Source: a virus. From it: a DNA stretch of 21,135 bases. Location: positions 1 to 21,135 of IMG/VR virus record IMGVR_UViG_3300013103_000073; one strand, given 5' to 3'. This document shows positions 13,606 through 20,771 of this stretch, piece by piece (within the stretch, counting starts at the first letter, position 1; each line of letters begins with the position of its first letter). A program made the translations under genes and the position numbers. The notes under the pieces were generated by a model. It had not been told where the DNA came from. It saw only the letters and a list, made by a program, of their open reading frames with translations, and did no database searches.

Positions 13606-15048
13606 TCAACCAACGAAAATTTCATTGTTTAAAATTTCAGGGTAAATATATGCCACCTCGATTGCACTCATTGTGCAGTCAAAAGCATCATCGAATGACC
13701 CGTTCGGGAAGGTCATTGCTTCGTCTGTAATTACATGCACATCCGGGACTTGCACGTTGAGAAAAACCTTCCCCGCTTTAATTTCAGGGCCGGCATCATA
13801 AGCCCTTGTTACTTTATCCGTCGTTCGTGGAATCCCATTTACTTTGTAATTTTTTTCTTCAAATCGTTGAACTAACCCGATTCCTGAGCTTTTATCTTCA
13901 ATGCACATGCCACGAAAAACTCCGCCGTTAAAAGGTTCAGCGTGTTTCAAATAAAAAATCTCGGCTTCCCGTTCAACCTCGGGAACTGTGAATTTTTTAT
14001 GAACATGGTCGATTAAATAGATGTTCCCATCGTGACCATGACCCCAAAATTGGAAGTCAGTATAATCGTTTTGATTTCCCTTTTTCTGCGCTGTGTCCGC
14101 AACAATATAAGTATAATCGAAAAGCGGTAAAGCTTCCCACCATTGCCACCATTCCCGATGAATCATGTTTCCACTTGCTTTAACTGGGTTCTGTTGATAT
14201 AGCGATTCCCACGATGCAGACAGCAGGACCTTTTTCTTTTCGGTTAAAAAACTCAACGATTTTAATTCAGGGAATAACGGTTCTCCTTGTTTTCGATATT
14301 CCTCGTCTTGTTCAGCAATCGCTTGGAATTTAAAAAGTGTAATACGATCCATGCCATATTTTTTAATCAACCTACCAACCAAGTCATCAATATGCCAACG
14401 AGTGGCGGTAACGATAAAACCGGCGTCATCAGCAAAACGAGTACCAAAGTCATCACAAAACCAATTCCAAACTCCATCACGAATCAGTTTTGATTCAGCC
14501 TCCTTGCGGCCTTTTATTGGGTCGTCAATATAACCGATATCAAGTCCTTCCCCCGTGATCGGTCCATTAACCGTAGTATTACGAAAAGAGCCAGTTTTGT
14601 TGATAAATTCAATCAGAGTTGAATTTTTCTTGTAAGTATTAGAAAGAGTTACAACGTTTTTACTATTAATCATCGTATCGGGAAAAATCTGTTGATATTT
14701 TTCGCCTATGATCGTCCTTTGAATACCAGCATTACAACGAACCCCCAGGTTTTCAGAAAATGACGCATAAACCTGTTTTAAATTTGGATTTTGTCCAGCG
14801 ATCCATGAAATGATATCCTCGATGCTCCATGATTTCCCATGCTGTGGAGGACAAGTAATGATTAGAATAGGACGTTTTTGTGATAAGTAATCCACGTAAA
14901 ACTGTTGTAAAGCAGCCGATAAATCCTTAATGAACCAACCAATTTTAAAATTACTGGCTCTCATAAATTGGCGATATGCCCAAAAATTTACTCGGGCTTT
15001 TTTAACCCACCAACTCTCGAGTATATCAATATCCTCATATGCTAACAT
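13606..15048 (-). CDS. terL: Terminase large subunit (DNA packaging ATPase and nuclease)
   Basis: This 480-residue motor cuts phage DNA and drives it into the head. The start used is ATG 15048, with TGAGG seven bases upstream and overlapping the small subunit's stop; a longer frame from 15081 lacks a site. The ATPase domain shows Walker A CPPQHGKS (66-73), Walker B IGYIDD (about 171-176) and the coupling region VTATRWHIDDLVGRL (213-227). The nuclease domain shows acidic residues in VADTAQKKGNQNDYTDF (D318), CIEDKSSGIG (E384) and SFDDAFDCTM (D453/D454). This is the full two-domain plan and all key residues are present. It overlaps the preceding small subunit by 14 bases, which suggests coupled translation. 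Confidence 0.95.
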   Translation of the reverse strand: MLAYEDIDILESWWVKKARVNFWAYRQFMRASNFKIGWFIKDLSAALQQFYVDYLSQKRPILIITCPPQHGKSWSIEDIISWIAGQNPNLKQVYASFSENLGVRCNAGIQRTIIGEKYQQIFPDTMINSKNVVTLSNTYKKNSTLIEFINKTGSFRNTTVNGPITGEGLDIGYIDDPIKGRKEAESKLIRDGVWNWFCDDFGTRFADDAGFIVTATRWHIDDLVGRLIKKYGMDRITLFKFQAIAEQDEEYRKQGEPLFPELKSLSFLTEKKKVLLSASWESLYQQNPVKASGNMIHREWWQWWEALPLFDYTYIVADTAQKKGNQNDYTDFQFWGHGHDGNIYLIDHVHKKFTVPEVEREAEIFYLKHAEPFNGGVFRGMCIEDKSSGIGLVQRFEEKNYKVNGIPRTTDKVTRAYDAGPEIKAGKVFLNVQVPDVHVITDEAMTFPNGSFDDAFDCTMSAIEVAYIYPEILNNEIFVG

Positions 15049-15430
15049 CAGGAACCTCAATATCAGGAATGGGAATCCCACGTACTTTCATAATTTCCTC
15101 AGGGTTTTCCACTGAGGTCTGGTCCCTAATCGTAGTTACATGCTCCTCGTTTATGCCGTATACGTTACTGGCCAATAATGTAAGGAGTTTCGTATTCGAG
15201 TCCTTGGGCGGACAAAAGGCCAAGCTAAATATGATTTTTCGTAGTTTTTGTTCGCCTTGTAACAAGCCTTTTTGAATCGACCAAAGAAAACTGGGGCTTT
15301 CTGATTTCCATTTTTCCAACGTTTCCTCGGAAATATTGAACTCAAGACATAAGTCCAACTCTGAAGCCAGAGGCTTGGTCAAGATTTTGTATGCCCGGTC
15401 GTCGTAATTTTTTTTATATTCGGTTCCCAT
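15035..15430 (-). CDS. terS: Terminase small subunit-like DNA-binding protein
   Basis: This 131-residue protein probably recognises the packaging site and recruits the large subunit. The N-terminal third reads AYKILTKPLASELDLCLEFN then ISEETLEKWKSESPSF, a helix-turn-helix of the type seen in small terminases ('...ELA..LGVS..TI..W......F'). A helix follows (WSIQKGLLQGEQKLRKIIFS), then LLTLLASNVYGIN, similar to the oligomerisation region. It ends in a Pro/Val/Asp-rich tail (GIPIPDIEVPDVSI). Its start codon directly follows the stop of a 36-codon leader frame (TAAATG), with only a weak GGGG site, so translation may be coupled. It overlaps the large subunit gene. Assignment rests on position and the HTH pattern. 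Confidence 0.78.
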   Translation of the reverse strand: MGTEYKKNYDDRAYKILTKPLASELDLCLEFNISEETLEKWKSESPSFLWSIQKGLLQGEQKLRKIIFSLAFCPPKDSNTKLLTLLASNVYGINEEHVTTIRDQTSVENPEEIMKVRGIPIPDIEVPDVSI

Positions 15431-16100: not shown

Positions 16101-16526
16101 CTAACTCCTCATAAGTTTTATTACTTCTTTCTGCAGTTGATTTTTTATTTCCCGTTCGTCCACTTCCAGTTTTATCTTCATAAGGGACATTAATTTAATC
16201 GCCTCATCGAGAGAAATTTTTCCCTGGCTTATTAATTTGATAATATCCTTTGATGATTGAGCCTCAATTTTCCGGGTTGCTTGAGCATCTTTTAGTAAAG
16301 GCTCGACCATTGAAACAATTTGCTCCAATTTGGTATGGTCAAAATTAACATAGCCACGGGGTAAACCCGCCTTTACTGCTTCATCTTCATCTTCCAACAT
16401 CCGATTGGTCGCAAAAATAAATTTCCACTGTAAGATTTGGTAAGTGTTTGCAACCAATTTATCCACGATATCCGACAGGGACGGTTCATCGTCTTTTGGA
16501 AAACCAATTGGCTTTGATAGTTTCAT
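16101..16526 (-). CDS. Hypothetical helical protein upstream of the nuclease
   Basis: I do not recognise this 141-residue protein. It is largely helical. The N-terminal part contains DIVDKLVANTYQILQWKFIF, and the middle is LEQIVSMVEPLLKDAQATRK. The end reads DIIKLISQGKISLDEAIKLM, resembling the short 'SHOCT-like' helical hairpin (I-x-x-G-x-I-S/T-x-x-E-F/A) that often ends DNA-binding or oligomerising proteins. It has an excellent AAAGGAGGAG site and its own promoter with a palindrome over the -10 box. It precedes the nuclease with a four-base gap, so the two form an operon. A role in DNA packaging or recombination is possible from context only. Confidence 0.65.
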   Translation of the reverse strand: MKLSKPIGFPKDDEPSLSDIVDKLVANTYQILQWKFIFATNRMLEDEDEAVKAGLPRGYVNFDHTKLEQIVSMVEPLLKDAQATRKIEAQSSKDIIKLISQGKISLDEAIKLMSLMKIKLEVDEREIKNQLQKEVIKLMRS

Positions 16527-16576
16527 TACATCTCCTCCTTTAATTCAGTCCTAAACGTCCGTTTTTATAGGAATAA

Positions 16577-16589
16577 GTCTATATTAGAC
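16577..16589. promoter_or_regulatory. Operator-like palindrome over the -10 box
   Basis: GTCTA-TAT-TAGAC is a perfect 5-bp inverted repeat centred on the -10 hexamer (16581-16586) of the leftward promoter. A second palindrome, AAACG-tc-CGTTT, lies at 16553-16564 downstream of the start point. Both are placed where a repressor would block transcription of the 141-residue gene and the nuclease. Confidence 0.45.
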
Positions 16590-16609
16590 GTTTTTAAAAC
16601 TTTTTTCAA
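16581..16609 (-). promoter_or_regulatory. Sigma-70-type promoter for the 141-residue gene and nuclease
   Basis: On the minus strand TTGAAA (rc of 16604-16609) and TAATAT (rc of 16581-16586) are 17 bases apart. The transcript would begin near 16574 and reach the ATG at 16526 with a strong ribosome site. Confidence 0.7.
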
Positions 16610-16688
16610 TAGGTTTTATTTATTTTATGTTAATTTACGATTTTACTTCAAAAAGGCCGTAAAATAAGCGATTTTATCCTTTTTACTA

Positions 16689-16712
16689 TAACTAGTTGAT
16701 ATCATTAGAAAT
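16689..16712 (+). repeat. 24-bp repeat, copy A (contains IHF-like core)
   Basis: TAACTAGTTGATA followed by TCATTAGAAAT. Its first 13 bases, read on the other strand, are TATCAACTAGTTA, matching the IHF consensus WATCAANNNNTTR at every fixed position. Positions 8-24 differ from copy D by one base in 17. Confidence 0.6.
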
Positions 16713-16740
16713 TATTTTTTTCTATTTATTTTTTCTGACA

Positions 16741-16764
16741 TAACATATTGATATTATTGCAATT
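16741..16764 (+). repeat. 24-bp repeat, copy B (IHF-like core)
   Basis: TAACATATTGATA then TTATTGCAATT. The first 13 bases on the other strand, TATCAATATGTTA, match the IHF consensus fully. The right half is more diverged than in the other copies. CGTACTAG follows at 16773-16780, mirrored by CTAGTACG at 17173-17180 after copy D. Confidence 0.5.
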
Positions 16765-16798
16765 ATTGATAGCGTACTAGATTCGATTCAAATTTTTT

Positions 16799-16854
16799 AT
16801 CGACACACATTTTTATGTATCGACACACGCAAAAAGTGTCTCAAAAGTGTCTCA
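16799..16854. repeat. Iteron-like GACAC/GTGTC direct repeats
   Basis: ATCGACACAC occurs at 16799-16808 and 16819-16828, exactly 20 bases apart. AAGTGTCTCA occurs at 16834-16843 and 16845-16854, exactly 11 bases apart, and again at 16924-16933. The two motifs share a GACAC core in opposite orientations. Helical phasing places sites on one face of the DNA, as for initiator or activator binding sites. Just rightward lies the first sigma-54-like promoter. Confidence 0.6.
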
Positions 16855-16868
16855 TTTTACGCATTTTG

Positions 16869-16892
16869 TAACTTACTGAAATCATTATAAAT
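16869..16892 (+). repeat. 24-bp repeat, copy C (next to sigma-54-like promoter)
   Basis: TAACTTACTGAAA then TCATTATAAAT. It resembles copies A and D over its length but breaks the IHF core at two positions. It sits six bases before the first sigma-54-like promoter, between it and the iteron cluster. Confidence 0.5.
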
Positions 16893-16897
16893 ATCGG

Positions 16898-16913
16898 TGG
16901 CACGTTCTTTGCT
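16898..16913 (+). promoter_or_regulatory. Sigma-54-type promoter 1
   Basis: TGGCACGTTCTTTGCT matches the -24/-12 consensus TGGCAC-N5-TTGCW at every fixed base. Transcription would start near 16924 and run rightward. No gene lies in that direction before 19681, and the replication gene is antisense, so any transcript would be noncoding or antisense. Repeats at 16799-16854 are placed like activator sites. Confidence 0.6.
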
Positions 16914-16927
16914 TGTGATACAGAAGT

Positions 16928-16950
16928 GTCTCATCTTCCACGTATGAGAC
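16928..16950. repeat. Inverted repeat GTCTCAT-N9-ATGAGAC
   Basis: GTCTCAT (16928-16934) and ATGAGAC (16944-16950) are perfect arms around nine bases. The left arm is part of the third GTGTCTCA repeat. It lies about 120-145 bases before the second sigma-54-like promoter, the usual distance of an enhancer-binding protein site. In RNA from promoter 1 it would form a 5' hairpin. ATGAGAC recurs at 17189-17195. Confidence 0.5.
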
Positions 16951-17007
16951 TGCTAGCGTGTTAGAAAAGCGTATCAGCACTTTTTCCTAGTGATATTAAT
17001 ATGTTAT

Positions 17008-17025
17008 TATATATATATATATATA
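17008..17025. repeat. (TA)9 tract
   Basis: Nine uninterrupted TA steps. Such tracts unwind easily and are found at replication origins and as flexible segments between activator sites and promoters. Simple slippage is also possible. Confidence 0.8.
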
Positions 17026-17070
17026 CTTCTACTGAAATACGCAAAACCAAAAAAAAAAGACCTCTCTGGC

Positions 17071-17086
17071 TGGCACGCTTTTTGCT
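17071..17086 (+). promoter_or_regulatory. Sigma-54-type promoter 2
   Basis: TGGCACGCTTTTTGCT again fits TGGCAC-N5-TTGCW fully and shares TGGCACG and TTGCTTG with promoter 1, 173 bases away. Transcription would start near 17097, in the GC-rich island, and run rightward through a long inverted repeat into the 3' end of the antisense replication gene. Confidence 0.6.
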
Positions 17087-17113
17087 TGAGGGGCGGCCGC
17101 ACCCCCGGAGTCG

Positions 17114-17187
17114 CAGGGAGCGTATAAGCGTAGAAGATTGCTGTAACATATTGATTTCATTAGAAATAGTTGCTAGTACGCCCCCTG
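17114..17187 (+). ncRNA. Possible structured RNA downstream of sigma-54-type promoter 2
   Basis: CAGGGAGCGTA (17114-17124) pairs with TACGCCCCCTG (17177-17187) over 10 of 11 positions, closing a 52-base loop that includes copy D of the 24-bp repeat. It would lie about 17 bases into a transcript from promoter 2. No coding frame with a ribosome site is seen. Whether RNA is made is unknown; the same arms could be a DNA binding site. Confidence 0.3.
17144..17167 (+). repeat. 24-bp repeat, copy D (IHF-like core)
   Basis: TAACATATTGATT then TCATTAGAAAT. Its first 13 bases on the other strand, AATCAATATGTTA, match the IHF consensus fully. It shares TAACATATTGAT with copy B and CATTAGAAAT with copy A. 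Confidence 0.6.
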
Positions 17188-17213
17188 TATGAGACGTTTT
17201 CGCCGTGTAAGAT

Positions 17214-19478
17214 TTATAATCGTTTGAATGTAAGTCTTGCATGCCCATATAACTCCAAAGTTTCGTCCTTACCTAATTGGTGGATGTTTACATCTCGCAG
17301 CAATGAATACTTATTCCGGTTAAATTCGTTTAATTCGCGTTCTGATAGCTTCCTCAATCGCCGATTTATCTTCCGACGCAGTGGAACCCATTCCATCGCC
17401 CCATCTTTTAGTTCCTTTTCTCCCACTCCCCATAGTGATTTTTTATAATGTTTTATAAGTGGTGTCATATCGCCGATAAAAATCTCCTCAATTTTCTTAA
17501 TTAATTTATCGAGTTCAGAATCAAAGACGCCTGTCTCCTCCTGCTTCCTGTGGGCATTAAACTCAGCAAATAACGATTTTTCAGCGATTTTCAAGTGATC
17601 GTTGGTAATTAACGGTTTTTCGGGGTTATCACAGACTGCGAGAATACCAGCATAGGCCGGGACTCGTTCATAAAGCCTCCCATAGAACGTGGATTCGTAA
17701 TCATCCCGGTTGAGTGCGGCTTTATTTTCTTGATCGAGCCAATACTGCCAACGACTCTTAAAAAACTTTTCGTCAGCATATTGAATATAAATCCAATGCT
17801 TTGGTTCCAACGGCCTCGTGCAGTCTTTTTTATTGGGATCGGAGGCTATTTTATATAATTGATTAATTAGTTTCCTTATTTTGGTTGGGACCTTATCAAT
17901 TCGATTTGTATTCATCGGAGCTTTAATCGGATCGATGATGACGTGGCTCCTTCGACCTGCGACACCAGCAACTGTTGTTTGGTTCATTACGTCAGCATCG
18001 GACTGAATTTCAGCAACCGACTCCCTGATAGTTGTTACGCCAGGTGAATATAAAGCGGGAATTTTATCGTTCTGGGCTCCGGAGGAGATATAGCCCGATT
18101 CACCTGACTCCGTGGAAAATTCCAATTCATATGCCATTACTCGGCTCATGTCTCCTGCTTTTGATTTATCTGACTGGCCTGATTCGGTTCGAACTGATAA
18201 AAGTGAATATTTTTCAGTGAGGTCTTCAACCATATTTTTTACGGACGTGTAATATTGGGCACCCAGAAACTCCTGACTCCTGCTTCCTAAAACAAAATTA
18301 TCAAGTACCCATATGAAAAACTTCTTTATATTACTTTTTCCAATCGTCGAACGTCCAGTAATTAATGCCGTTAATGCGATTCCCTTACCCGTGGGAAGTG
18401 TATAACTACGAGCACCCAACGTGGAAATTACCGTTCTGGCAGCAGTAACAGCTATTTGTCGATTGGGAAATATCATCCAGTCCATACAACATTTTACAAG
18501 TTCCTCAAATAATCCACCTTGATCAGGATACCTTGTATATACCCTTTTGTCCGTTCGTTTTTCCTCCTCGACTTGCCAGTGGTCGTCATTTTCTGGATGC
18601 TTAAATTTACTAGCCGCAGCATCGACTAAACGATTCAAATCCTCCTTATATTTTTTTAATTTATCATCATTCATGTTCCAGCCAGACGTCAAACCATGCA
18701 AGGTGGCTTTTATCGCTTCAGGCTTGCGCCCATCCTGAATATTGCCATAAATATATTTATTAATTGAGGCGTGCAAAGGAGAAATGCCATGAACGATATT
18801 ATTTACTATTTCTGATTCAGGACAATAGCTAGTAGTACCAGTAGGTAAATTTTGTTTAGACCCAGGCCCCATAGGTGTTAAATCTTCACCTGAAAAATGA
18901 TAAAAACTTTGGTATTCAGAAACACCTGGGTCTGGCACGGCGGGCAGGAACCACATTTGTGGAAGTGTAAATGATTCATTCGATTGCTTCAAGTCCTTAC
19001 AATTAATCAGGTCATATAATTTTGAAACGGTGGCTACATGCCGCTGCTTCAAAAATGATCCCTTTTTTAATTCACAAGGAACGATCAATCGCCATTTGAA
19101 AACTTGTGGTGGGTTATACGAGGAAGTTGTATAAATAATATGATTAATATTTTGAGCTTTTAATGATTGGTGAATTAAAATCGGATCGATGCAGGAATCA
19201 GGGTTATCAACTGATTGGTCGCCGTCGATGCACACACACCAACTTGACACGTGGGTTTTTAGGTTCCTTCGGTAATGATCCTTGTCCCTGCCGTCCTTTG
19301 TATTTTCTTTTGATGCAGGTGTTAACTCTACCTCAGATGCGGTAGTAAAATAAAATCCTCCTTTGCTTCCTTTTAATGGGTCCTTGACGAATTTTTCATA
19401 AAAATCCGATAAGGAGTTAATTTCAAATGGCTTTAAAACAGCCGTATGCTTATGCTCCCCGATATATACTTGTTCCAT
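17214..19478 (-). CDS. Primase/helicase-like replication protein (AEP-type N-terminus, P-loop ATPase)
   Basis: This 754-residue protein is likely the phage replication initiator or primase-helicase. The N-terminal part has WCVCIDGDQS (D85-x-D87), then HIIYTTSSYNPPQVFKWRLI with R130. This is the hDhD...s-S...K-x-R-h-h pattern of archaeo-eukaryotic-type primases found in phages and plasmids. The C-terminal part has a Walker A motif GRSTIGKS (375-382) within LTALITGRSTIGKSNIKKFF, in a DUF3987-like ATPase context. A possible acidic motif follows (YELEFSTESGESGY, about 450-463). The ATG has GGAG seven bases upstream. A consensus promoter precedes it, and the repeat-rich block immediately follows. 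Domain identity is by motif only; polymerase activity is not implied. Confidence 0.75.
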   Translation of the reverse strand: MEQVYIGEHKHTAVLKPFEINSLSDFYEKFVKDPLKGSKGGFYFTTASEVELTPASKENTKDGRDKDHYRRNLKTHVSSWCVCIDGDQSVDNPDSCIDPILIHQSLKAQNINHIIYTTSSYNPPQVFKWRLIVPCELKKGSFLKQRHVATVSKLYDLINCKDLKQSNESFTLPQMWFLPAVPDPGVSEYQSFYHFSGEDLTPMGPGSKQNLPTGTTSYCPESEIVNNIVHGISPLHASINKYIYGNIQDGRKPEAIKATLHGLTSGWNMNDDKLKKYKEDLNRLVDAAASKFKHPENDDHWQVEEEKRTDKRVYTRYPDQGGLFEELVKCCMDWMIFPNRQIAVTAARTVISTLGARSYTLPTGKGIALTALITGRSTIGKSNIKKFFIWVLDNFVLGSRSQEFLGAQYYTSVKNMVEDLTEKYSLLSVRTESGQSDKSKAGDMSRVMAYELEFSTESGESGYISSGAQNDKIPALYSPGVTTIRESVAEIQSDADVMNQTTVAGVAGRRSHVIIDPIKAPMNTNRIDKVPTKIRKLINQLYKIASDPNKKDCTRPLEPKHWIYIQYADEKFFKSRWQYWLDQENKAALNRDDYESTFYGRLYERVPAYAGILAVCDNPEKPLITNDHLKIAEKSLFAEFNAHRKQEETGVFDSELDKLIKKIEEIFIGDMTPLIKHYKKSLWGVGEKELKDGAMEWVPLRRKINRRLRKLSERELNEFNRNKYSLLRDVNIHQLGKDETLELYGHARLTFKRL

Positions 19479-19527: not shown

Positions 19528-19556
19528 AATATATCATTTAAAAAAATTAGTGTCAA
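19528..19556 (-). promoter_or_regulatory. Sigma-70-type promoter of the replication gene
   Basis: On the minus strand TTGACA (rc of 19551-19556) and TATATT (rc of 19528-19533) are 17 bases apart. Transcription starts near 19521 and reaches the ATG at 19478. It lies back to back with the plus-strand promoter at 19609-19637, so the two may share control. Confidence 0.8.
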
Positions 19557-19608
19557 TCTATTATACTTGGTATGATAATTGCTTATAACTTTTTTCTTAG
19601 TTTTTCTG

Positions 19609-19680: not shown

Positions 19681-20370
19681 ATGATGACTCGAAAAAACGT
19701 TCTTGACAAAATTTTGAAACTGTTGGCCCTGTCTAAAAACAATTCTGAGACCCATGAAGCAAAGGCTGCCAAGGCCAAAGCTGCAAAGCTGATGGCACAA
19801 TTTGACATAAAAATTGCCGAGGCTGAAGAAAAACCGCTCTTTACCGAGCAGGAAGTGGGAATCAAATCAAAAAATCCCCAAAAATATGATACCACCCTCC
19901 GTTCAAGCATTGCTAATTTCAACGGTGTGGCACTTATCATGAGAAAACTCCACTCCGGTAGTGCGTATCTCTATGTAGGACGTACTGTTGACATCGAACA
20001 AGCCCTATATATGAGTGATATTATATACCGGCAAAGAGATATAAAATGGAAGGAATATTTGAAATCATTACCTAAATTGACCACATCTCAACGTGGAAAG
20101 GAACGGCGGCTTTGGAGGGCAGGATTCGCCCTTGGCATACGTGAAAAGCTCAAAGAGCTTACGGAAATGAAAAATACCCACATCCAGGAACGTGGGTTAA
20201 CAATCGTGCCCTTGAACGTTCAGGCGTTAAGGGAATTTAAAAAAAATAATCGGCTCCAATATTCCCGGAGTCGGGGATCATCATATTCGGATGCTGGCTT
20301 CCAGGCTGGGAAATCGACGTCCATCCATAAAGGTGTGTCAAAACAAAGTTCGATAAAACGCCTTAATTAA
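19681..20370 (+). CDS. DUF2786-domain protein
   Basis: This 229-residue basic protein carries the DUF2786 signature in its first 45 residues: ILKLLALSKNNSETHEAKAA then AKLMAQFDIKI. This is the pattern K-x-L-x-L-A-x-S-x-N-x-x-E-A-x-x-A-x-x-x-A-x-x-L-M. A second conserved block, RRLWRAGFALGIREKLKEL (about 139-157), resembles the C-terminal part of the family (DUF7168-like). The C-terminus is Ser/Arg/Lys-rich and probably disordered. Such genes are frequent in phages and mobile elements; their biochemical role is not established. The start is the first of two adjacent ATG codons, ten bases after AAGGAGG. It is divergent from the replication gene and is the first gene of the rightward unit. Confidence 0.8.
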   Translation: MMTRKNVLDKILKLLALSKNNSETHEAKAAKAKAAKLMAQFDIKIAEAEEKPLFTEQEVGIKSKNPQKYDTTLRSSIANFNGVALIMRKLHSGSAYLYVGRTVDIEQALYMSDIIYRQRDIKWKEYLKSLPKLTTSQRGKERRLWRAGFALGIREKLKELTEMKNTHIQERGLTIVPLNVQALREFKKNNRLQYSRSRGSSYSDAGFQAGKSTSIHKGVSKQSSIKRLN

Positions 20371-20423
20371 ATTCAGGTCCTGGGCATGACAATAAAAGGC
20401 CCATACTCGTGGAGGCTATAAGG

Positions 20424-20771
20424 ATGCGGATGTGGATGATTGATGTAAAATATATGTGTGGTTACCATATAATAAAGGAGCATAATGATATTCACAGGCT
20501 CCTCTGGTTACTCGAATCAAAAAAATTTGACCTAACCCGATATAATTTTCCGATTATACGATTAGAGCCACAGTCGATTGAGGAGAGACACGATGCCCTT
20601 AAAAGAGAGATGGAACGGAGGCATATAGTGCATATAGGGGAAATCGGACACGTTACCCTATGGCCCTATTTAGCATATCAAATCAATGTTAAAGTCGACC
20701 TTTGGCATAATGCCAAGGAGCTTTGCCGAACCTGCAGCAGTTGCAGGAAAAAAATTTTAAGAAAAAACTAA
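20424..20771 (+). CDS. Hypothetical small protein with C-terminal Cys cluster
   Basis: I do not recognise this 115-residue protein. The start is ATG 20424, eight bases after GGAGG; a GTG at 20409 in the same frame overlaps that site. It is rich in His, Arg and Trp, e.g. YHIIKEHNDIHRLLWLLESK and REMERRHIVHIGEIGHVTLW. It ends with C101-RT-C104-SS-C107-RKK, a spacing that could bind a metal but is short of a full four-ligand finger. It follows the DUF2786 gene by 53 bases and probably shares its promoter. Expression is likely from the good site; the role is unknown. Confidence 0.5.
   Translation: MRMWMIDVKYMCGYHIIKEHNDIHRLLWLLESKKFDLTRYNFPIIRLEPQSIEERHDALKREMERRHIVHIGEIGHVTLWPYLAYQINVKVDLWHNAKELCRTCSSCRKKILRKN

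Follow-up and report, generated by a model that had tools for sequence, protein, structure and literature searches.

IHF acts at sigma-54 promoters in Desulfovibrio, and in the orp operons of Desulfovibrio vulgaris, a −24/−12 element is accompanied by a nearby WATCARxxxxTTR motif and by candidate activator repeats upstream (PMC3897727). The locus analyzed here has comparable components, but unlike those operons it sits in a phage, contains two predicted promoters, lacks an adjoining activator gene, and is antisense to the next gene. Another point of comparison is offered by the intragenic sigma-54 sites of E. coli, which likewise have no adjacent target gene, and some of which give rise to messengers whose 5′ UTRs are exceptionally long (PMC4591121); these sites are chromosomal and located inside genes, whereas the ones described here are intergenic and paired, and are densely arrayed in other phages. 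For phages, PMC3391216 and PMC7693777 mention a sigma-54-type regulator gene and a protein that is putatively sigma-54-like rather than sites, and none of the top-ranked open-access titles and abstract beginnings listed reports clustered sigma-54 sites in phages. Rhodoferax phage P26218 and Alteromonas phage vB_AmaS-R9Y1 resemble the sigma-54 arrays in carrying clusters of short motifs at a similar genome position, i.e., in the gap that separates replication genes from packaging genes (L146:2662–3170 and L148:3582–4006), but those clusters are built of CTGCTACAA-like and AACGTTACA-like motifs, unlike sigma-54 sites.

The window, i.e., the whole stretch of 21135 bases that was analyzed, is a complete virus record of a tailed phage. 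All recognized genes left of 19.5 kb are on the minus strand, and include tail and portal genes, the terminase large subunit (TerL), a PDDEXK nuclease, and a 141-codon gene. The TerL gene (13606–15081, minus strand) was named through Pfam (Terminase_6N, E 7.4e-12); neither the window nor its near relative yielded a PHROG 2 match. Its best matches were found in a Desulfobacterales MAG among genomes (44%) and in Yersinia phages in the phage collection (45%). The start end of the 141-codon gene lies at 16526 and is followed by a 687-base intergenic gap (16527–17213), which we propose as a control region, and then by the gene for a 754-aa primase (17214–19478, minus strand; PHROG 3022 DNA primase, E 1.5e-18). 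Beyond the primase, the early module opens with two plus-strand genes, encoding a DUF2786/DUF7168 protein (19681–20370) and a Pyr_excise-like protein (20409–20771).

Within the gap, we identified two plus-strand sites that match TGGCACNNNNNTTGCW without a mismatch, the only such sites of the window: P1 (TGGCACGTTCTTTGCT; 16898–16913) and P2 (TGGCACGCTTTTTGCT; 17071–17086), separated by 173 bases from start to start. Both match TGGCAC-N5-TTGCW in full and share the flanking bases TGGCACG...TTGCTTG, exactly as the preliminary description had reported, and in both the TGGCAC and TTGC elements retain the invariant GG and GC at the fixed spacing. Transcription starts, placed 12 bases past the −12 C according to the −24/−12 geometry, are predicted at 16924 and 17097, i.e., at the same positions as in that description. 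Shuffled windows contained the full consensus 0.01 times on average and none of 100 shuffles had two sites, while the weight-matrix scores of P1 and P2 (21.1 and 20.5) exceeded the top score of 60 Markov-shuffled windows (19.7).

P1 and P2 lie 1.8–2.0 kb from the 5′ end of the terminase gene and point away from it, into the primase 3′ end in antisense, and onward toward the early genes. The rightward orientation antisense to a replication gene is thus supported, the gene in question being the PHROG-named primase. The statement that the sites face no gene holds locally, where the primase gene is antisense, but not further on, where early genes occupy the same strand from 19681. Since these early genes share the strand of P1 and P2, a read-through early promoter is possible. 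A weak third sigma-54-like site on the plus strand (TGGTATGATAATTGCT; 19568–19583; two mismatches) precedes the first early gene by ~100 bases and has a counterpart with one mismatch in the near relative (TGGCATGATAATTGCT; G001:40149–40164), although taken alone its score in the window (14.1 vs a mean null best of 13.1) does not exceed what chance gives. Near this third site, a strong sigma-70-like promoter (TTGACA-17-TATATT, 11/12) was seen on the minus strand at 19528–19556, before the primase gene.

Next, we evaluated conservation of the locus. The near relative, IMGVR_UViG_3300005264_000129 (G001; 42871 bases), encodes a primase 96% identical to that of the window, and is probably circular or permuted, as the window alignment spans both of its ends. 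Its early module extends over ~16 kb on the same strand as the sites, apart from one picked 80-codon frame, and includes ligase-like, polymerase, helicase, annealing protein, methylase, and other genes (some of these names being assigned by eye). P1 and P2 are letter-identical in G001, spacers included (G001:42818–42833 and G001:42644–42659), while the whole gap is 76% identical, the stretches adjoining the sites 47–72% identical, and only 9.8% of 16-base windows elsewhere in the aligned, site-free gap are fully identical. Bases 17087–17118, immediately after P2, are 47% identical, and the following block (17119–17213) 92% identical. The two sites are therefore conserved beyond their surroundings in one near relative. 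The expectation that related phages would keep them was borne out in G001 but not in the distant relative L004, a 10-kb contig with a 60% identical primase, in which no P1/P2-type site was found and genes occupy the position of the gap. In the gap upstream of the early genes of that contig (L004:1440–2160), many GAGTAATA/TATTACTC-like repeat copies are present in place of sigma-54 sites. DNA relatives of the gap were absent from the phage collection, as were primase relatives from the genome contig collection.

The gap also contains five copies, with up to 4 mismatches, of a 24-base element, three of which include a perfect IHF consensus on the minus strand (WATCARxxxxTTR, taken as printed in PMC3897727). 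These perfect sites are located at 16689–16701 (TATCAACTAGTTA, replaced by AATCAATATGTTA in the same place at G001:172), 16741–16753 (TATCAATATGTTA, with TATCAATACTTTA at G001:121), and 17144–17156 (AATCAATATGTTA, identical at G001:42575), so that G001 retains the full consensus at all three positions, twice with changes at free positions and once without any. Only 0.0875 perfect sites would be expected in 687 bases, and none of 2000 shuffles reached three. The remaining two copies, each with 4 mismatches, are found immediately upstream of P1 (16869–16892, plus strand) and, inverted, between P1 and P2 (16983–17006, minus strand). An IHF site near the promoter, a common but not universal trait of sigma-54 promoters, is thus present, although the interval from −32 to −114 holds degenerate copies only, and the perfect sites do not take the usual position between activator site and promoter: in the orp operons, IHF sits between the two, whereas the perfect sites of the window are further up- or downstream (PMC3897727). 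The idea that the 24-base element is an unknown operator was dropped, given the exact IHF consensus in three of its copies. A more degenerate, IHF-like copy of the element with 5 mismatches was also seen after a TTGACA in an early-module gap (L015:17900–17923, corresponding to G001:27151–27174); as no sigma-54 site was seen in that gap, sigma-54 sites are not the only context of the element.

Upstream of P1, a direct repeat of AAAAGTGTCTC (16832–16853, plus strand; copies at 16832 and 16843) spans −92 to −71 and represents a candidate activator (UAS) site. A third copy with one change (AGAAGTGTCTC; 16922–16932, plus strand) coincides with the P1 start, i.e., −175 to −165 of P2, and is kept in G001, where the second copy of the pair is intact and the first altered. 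The upstream repeats of the preliminary description are hence real, and comprise these AAAAGTGTCTC-like copies at 16832, 16843, and 16922 along with the five-copy 24-base element. The AAAAGTGTCTC-type copies lie at distances suitable for activator binding, for which about 80–200 bases upstream is typical, and this makes them candidates for this role. An activator gene (PF00158), which a phage with such promoters need not encode itself, was detected in neither of the two records, the window (a fragment) and G001, and a host activator would therefore have to serve. Overall, the exact consensus, the identity of the sites in G001 as opposed to their diverged flanks, and the IHF sites support the identification of P1 and P2 as sigma-54 promoters, and the sequence evidence that sigma-54 polymerase would bind there is strong but indirect.

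We then searched for similar sites across phages. Arrays were defined as at least 3 sites with neighbors no more than 120 bases apart, a definition that excludes the window pair, with its two strong sites 173 bases apart. A scan for site pairs 140–170 bases apart recovered four contigs, G001 and three others, and the latter hold arrays of 6, 10, and 12 sites. A scan for close pairs, which imposed two sites per array, same-strand order, and 2–30 bases between them, detected at least 120 stretches in phage contigs, compared to none when the motif was reversed and a single one, in a simple-repeat tract, when the 4-base spacer was replaced by a 5-base spacer. The same close pairs were absent from 398 Pseudomonadota and 297 Desulfobacterota genomes, the phyla to which G012 (Limnobacter) and G003 (Desulfobacterales) belong, so that clusters of sigma-54 sites in phages are a pattern without match in the bacterial genomes checked (0/695). 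Total numbers of full sigma-54 sites ranged from 0 to 10 per record in ten bacterial genomes and from 2 to 12 in twelve phage records.

Among the matches listed, removal of near-duplicates left 95 of 122 loci, 63 of which had at least 3 sites, with a maximum of 13. Within arrays, sites are either lined up head to tail or show alternating directions, and distances between same-strand sites peak at 26 and 28 bases, and at 43–47 bases. As 43 of these 63 arrays, again among the matches listed, carry at least 3 different 4-base spacers, the arrays are not copies of one repeat. IHF sites were more frequent within 300 bases of arrays (11 in 46 kb) than elsewhere (42 in 491 kb), possibly in part because these gaps are AT-rich. 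Arrays of 8–13 sites, head to tail or mirrored, were observed in different phage contigs (L081:1964–2251, L013:4944–5280, L124:212–676, L072:3562–3779, and others), less than 2 kb from the terminase gene in L013 and L072 and 6–9 kb away in L081 and L124. None of 13 phage-collection records chosen by terminase similarity (3 of them metagenome assemblies) included a full-consensus site, while scattered one-mismatch sites occurred in 10 of the 13. Rhizobium phage RHph_Y25 has a single one-mismatch site, possibly a chance occurrence (TGGCAGG-N4-TTGC; L154:3057–3071), in a gap ~1.6 kb upstream of its terminase gene and directed away from it. Separately, a 59-codon frame of MW202489 (L155:4993–5172) is labelled class D beta-lactamase OXA-58, for which it is far too short, and is probably misannotated.

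To describe the placement of the arrays, TerL was located with PHROG 2 in 65 records with at least 3 sites among the matches listed, 13 of which had no phrog_2 match; L052 and L076 are near-duplicates included in these 65, and neither contributes to the near-TerL records. In 32 of the 52 records with a match (among the matches listed), the array lies on the upstream side of TerL, 0–3 kb from its 5′ end. The description of sigma-54 promoters as uncommon in phages understates the case, as clusters of these sites recur in phages, in those 32 records just upstream of the terminase. The other 20 of the 52 listed records did not have an array near TerL, and 3 of these would do so only if the contig were circular. 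When contigs of at least 25 kb were considered, the array was near TerL in 15 of 27 (matches listed) vs 1.83 expected at random (0/200000 simulations), although part of this positional effect would arise if, as may be the case, large intergenic gaps are most frequent near packaging genes. One-directional arrays near TerL mostly point away from it (11 away and 2 toward among the matches listed, or 12 away if the 5-kb contig L128 is circular), and those not near TerL include 5 pointing away (L043, L131, L119, L108, and L143) and 3 pointing toward it (L081, L134, and L129). For records with two sites, 15 of 32 were taken into this test, and 6 had a TerL match, with 1 near it (matches listed). The window pair shares the usual, though not universal, placement and direction of the arrays, lying 1.8–2.0 kb upstream of TerL with its sites on the plus strand and TerL on the minus strand. 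Based on crude frame picking, a downstream frame was predicted for 14 of the 19 wholly or mostly away-pointing arrays. The L132 array faces an anti-restriction gene, a gene of unknown function, and thymidylate synthase, which look like early genes.

Taken together, these observations lead us to lean, with modest confidence, toward the gap being a sigma-54/IHF control region that produces a rightward RNA, and toward the pair being a sparse form of a phage-wide layout. Host RNA polymerase carrying sigma-54 would sit on P1 and P2 as closed complexes, as their consensus and conservation suggest, and IHF would bend the DNA of the gap at the IHF sites. A host AAA+ activator, perhaps bound at the AAAAGTGTCTC repeats, would then open these complexes when nutrient or stress conditions in the host are suitable. 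Transcription would proceed rightward, yielding an RNA that is antisense to the primase gene and may continue into the early module. Judging from its place and direction, the window pair would belong to the layout of clusters located upstream of the terminase and pointing away from it. For the window, the IHF sites, the conservation, and the presence of two spaced promoters favor regulated transcription that leads away from the packaging genes, while a decoy or occupancy role is equally likely for the dense and mirror-image arrays seen elsewhere. IHF at Desulfovibrio sigma-54 promoters and the Desulfobacterales match of the terminase point in the same direction, with the Yersinia phage match as a counterweight. 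Whether for control or as decoys, it is also conceivable, with the balance tipping slightly toward doubt, that tailed phages of many lineages carry sigma-54 clusters bordering their packaging module, the window pair representing a two-site form.

A decoy or occupancy function in general, which we regard as rather unlikely, would mean that sigma-54 polymerase is kept in closed complexes on the sites, and to a greater extent on the arrays, which would lower host sigma-54 transcription after phage DNA amplification, a transcript being unnecessary. Sigma-54 polymerase waits in closed complexes, and arrays with up to 13 sites, many 26–28 bases apart, or with mirror-image (+−+−) arrangements would make poor promoters; in addition, none of the 32 array records inspected, which include many fragments, carried an activator gene. 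A decoy, however, needs no fixed place, yet arrays are preferentially found upstream of the terminase, where those with a single direction mostly point away from it. Two sites, as in the window, would moreover titrate little, and conserved IHF sites better suit a regulated promoter. If the decoy function holds, the comparable cases would be Xp10 P7 and T7 Ocr, which represent phage inhibition of host polymerase, although these are proteins whereas the sigma-54 sites are DNA. Both are said to act on the sigma-54 form of the polymerase.

The strict version of the preliminary interpretation, i.e., a dedicated short noncoding antisense RNA directed against the primase messenger and controlled by host state, appears unlikely to us. 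It fits the direction of the sites into the primase 3′ end, the two predicted starts, and the 92% identity of the block at 17119–17213. Yet to end a short RNA there is no convincing terminator: the nearest plus-strand terminator-like match is the only one, weak and distant at 18569, with shuffles giving 2.4 in the scanned region. Similarly, none of 4227 Rfam families matched the window at gathering score, and a weak match in the region to mir-434 (E 0.5) is implausible. A short structured RNA was rejected on these grounds. Across away-pointing arrays, the first downstream frame, as crudely picked, shares the strand of the sites in 9 of 14 cases and is antisense in 5 of 14. Overall, the observation of the two sites is confirmed, and the interpretation placed on it partly supported.

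The regulated rightward transcript that we favor could alternatively encode a protein. A 92-codon plus-strand frame with a TTG start (17170–17448) is open to the same stop in the window and G001, and overlaps the conserved primase 3′ end in antisense. As third positions of the two frames coincide, the observation that 19 of 28 substitutions in the overlap fall on third positions of both frames can be explained by the primase alone. Upstream of the overlap, third positions account for 2 of the 6 substitutions, and residue differences amount to 15 of 92 in this frame vs 5 of 77 in the primase part. This provides no coding signal, and we weakly reject the frame as a gene, a small protein being possible. 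A 95-codon minus-strand frame (16961–17248) was also rejected as coding, differences between the window and G001 being mostly amino-acid changes when inspected by eye.

An origin of replication or a pac/cos structure, in which the AT-rich stretch, repeats, and IHF sites of the gap would serve replication or packaging and TGGCACG-N4-TTGC would be read by a phage protein with a sigma-54-like motif, seems quite improbable. The gap does lie between the primase and the packaging genes, with an AT-rich run (~17007–17026) and repeats, and IHF acts at lambda cos and att. The replication-packaging border may also be a general place for arrays, which would be compatible with an origin or packaging role, since P26218 and R9Y1 carry arrays of other motifs there. 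Against this, the sigma-54 spacing is kept exactly: in the 63 arrays (matches listed, two sites per array being imposed by the search), 319 sites have a 4-base spacer, none a 3- or 5-base spacer, and 27 other lengths between 0 and 10. At positions free of the search pattern, 32 arrays show T/C before TGG and A/T after TTGC, the further letters of the sigma-54 consensus, and this across contigs of 35–67% GC. Furthermore, a protein with the sigma-54 DNA-binding domain was found in none of 38 records (36 array records, the window, and G001). The GC-skew minimum of G001 is near 39–40 kb, beside the primase start and outside the gap; as skew in this genome tracks gene direction, it gives no decision on the origin. 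Finally, although long sequences yield matches to a short consensus at random, chance is rejected as a very remote explanation for P1 and P2, as 0.01 sites were expected and two were found 173 bases apart, both identical in G001.

Because an activated AAA+ protein is required, sigma-54 phage promoters would directly tie part of the phage program to the nitrogen, stress, or membrane state of the host. A recurrent cluster at a preferred place in many phages provides a concrete handle on how phages sense host physiology, and also on the possible titration of a host sigma factor by the phage DNA itself. If this is true, these clusters would represent a phage-specific element linking phage transcription, or the sigma-54 capacity of the host, to infection.
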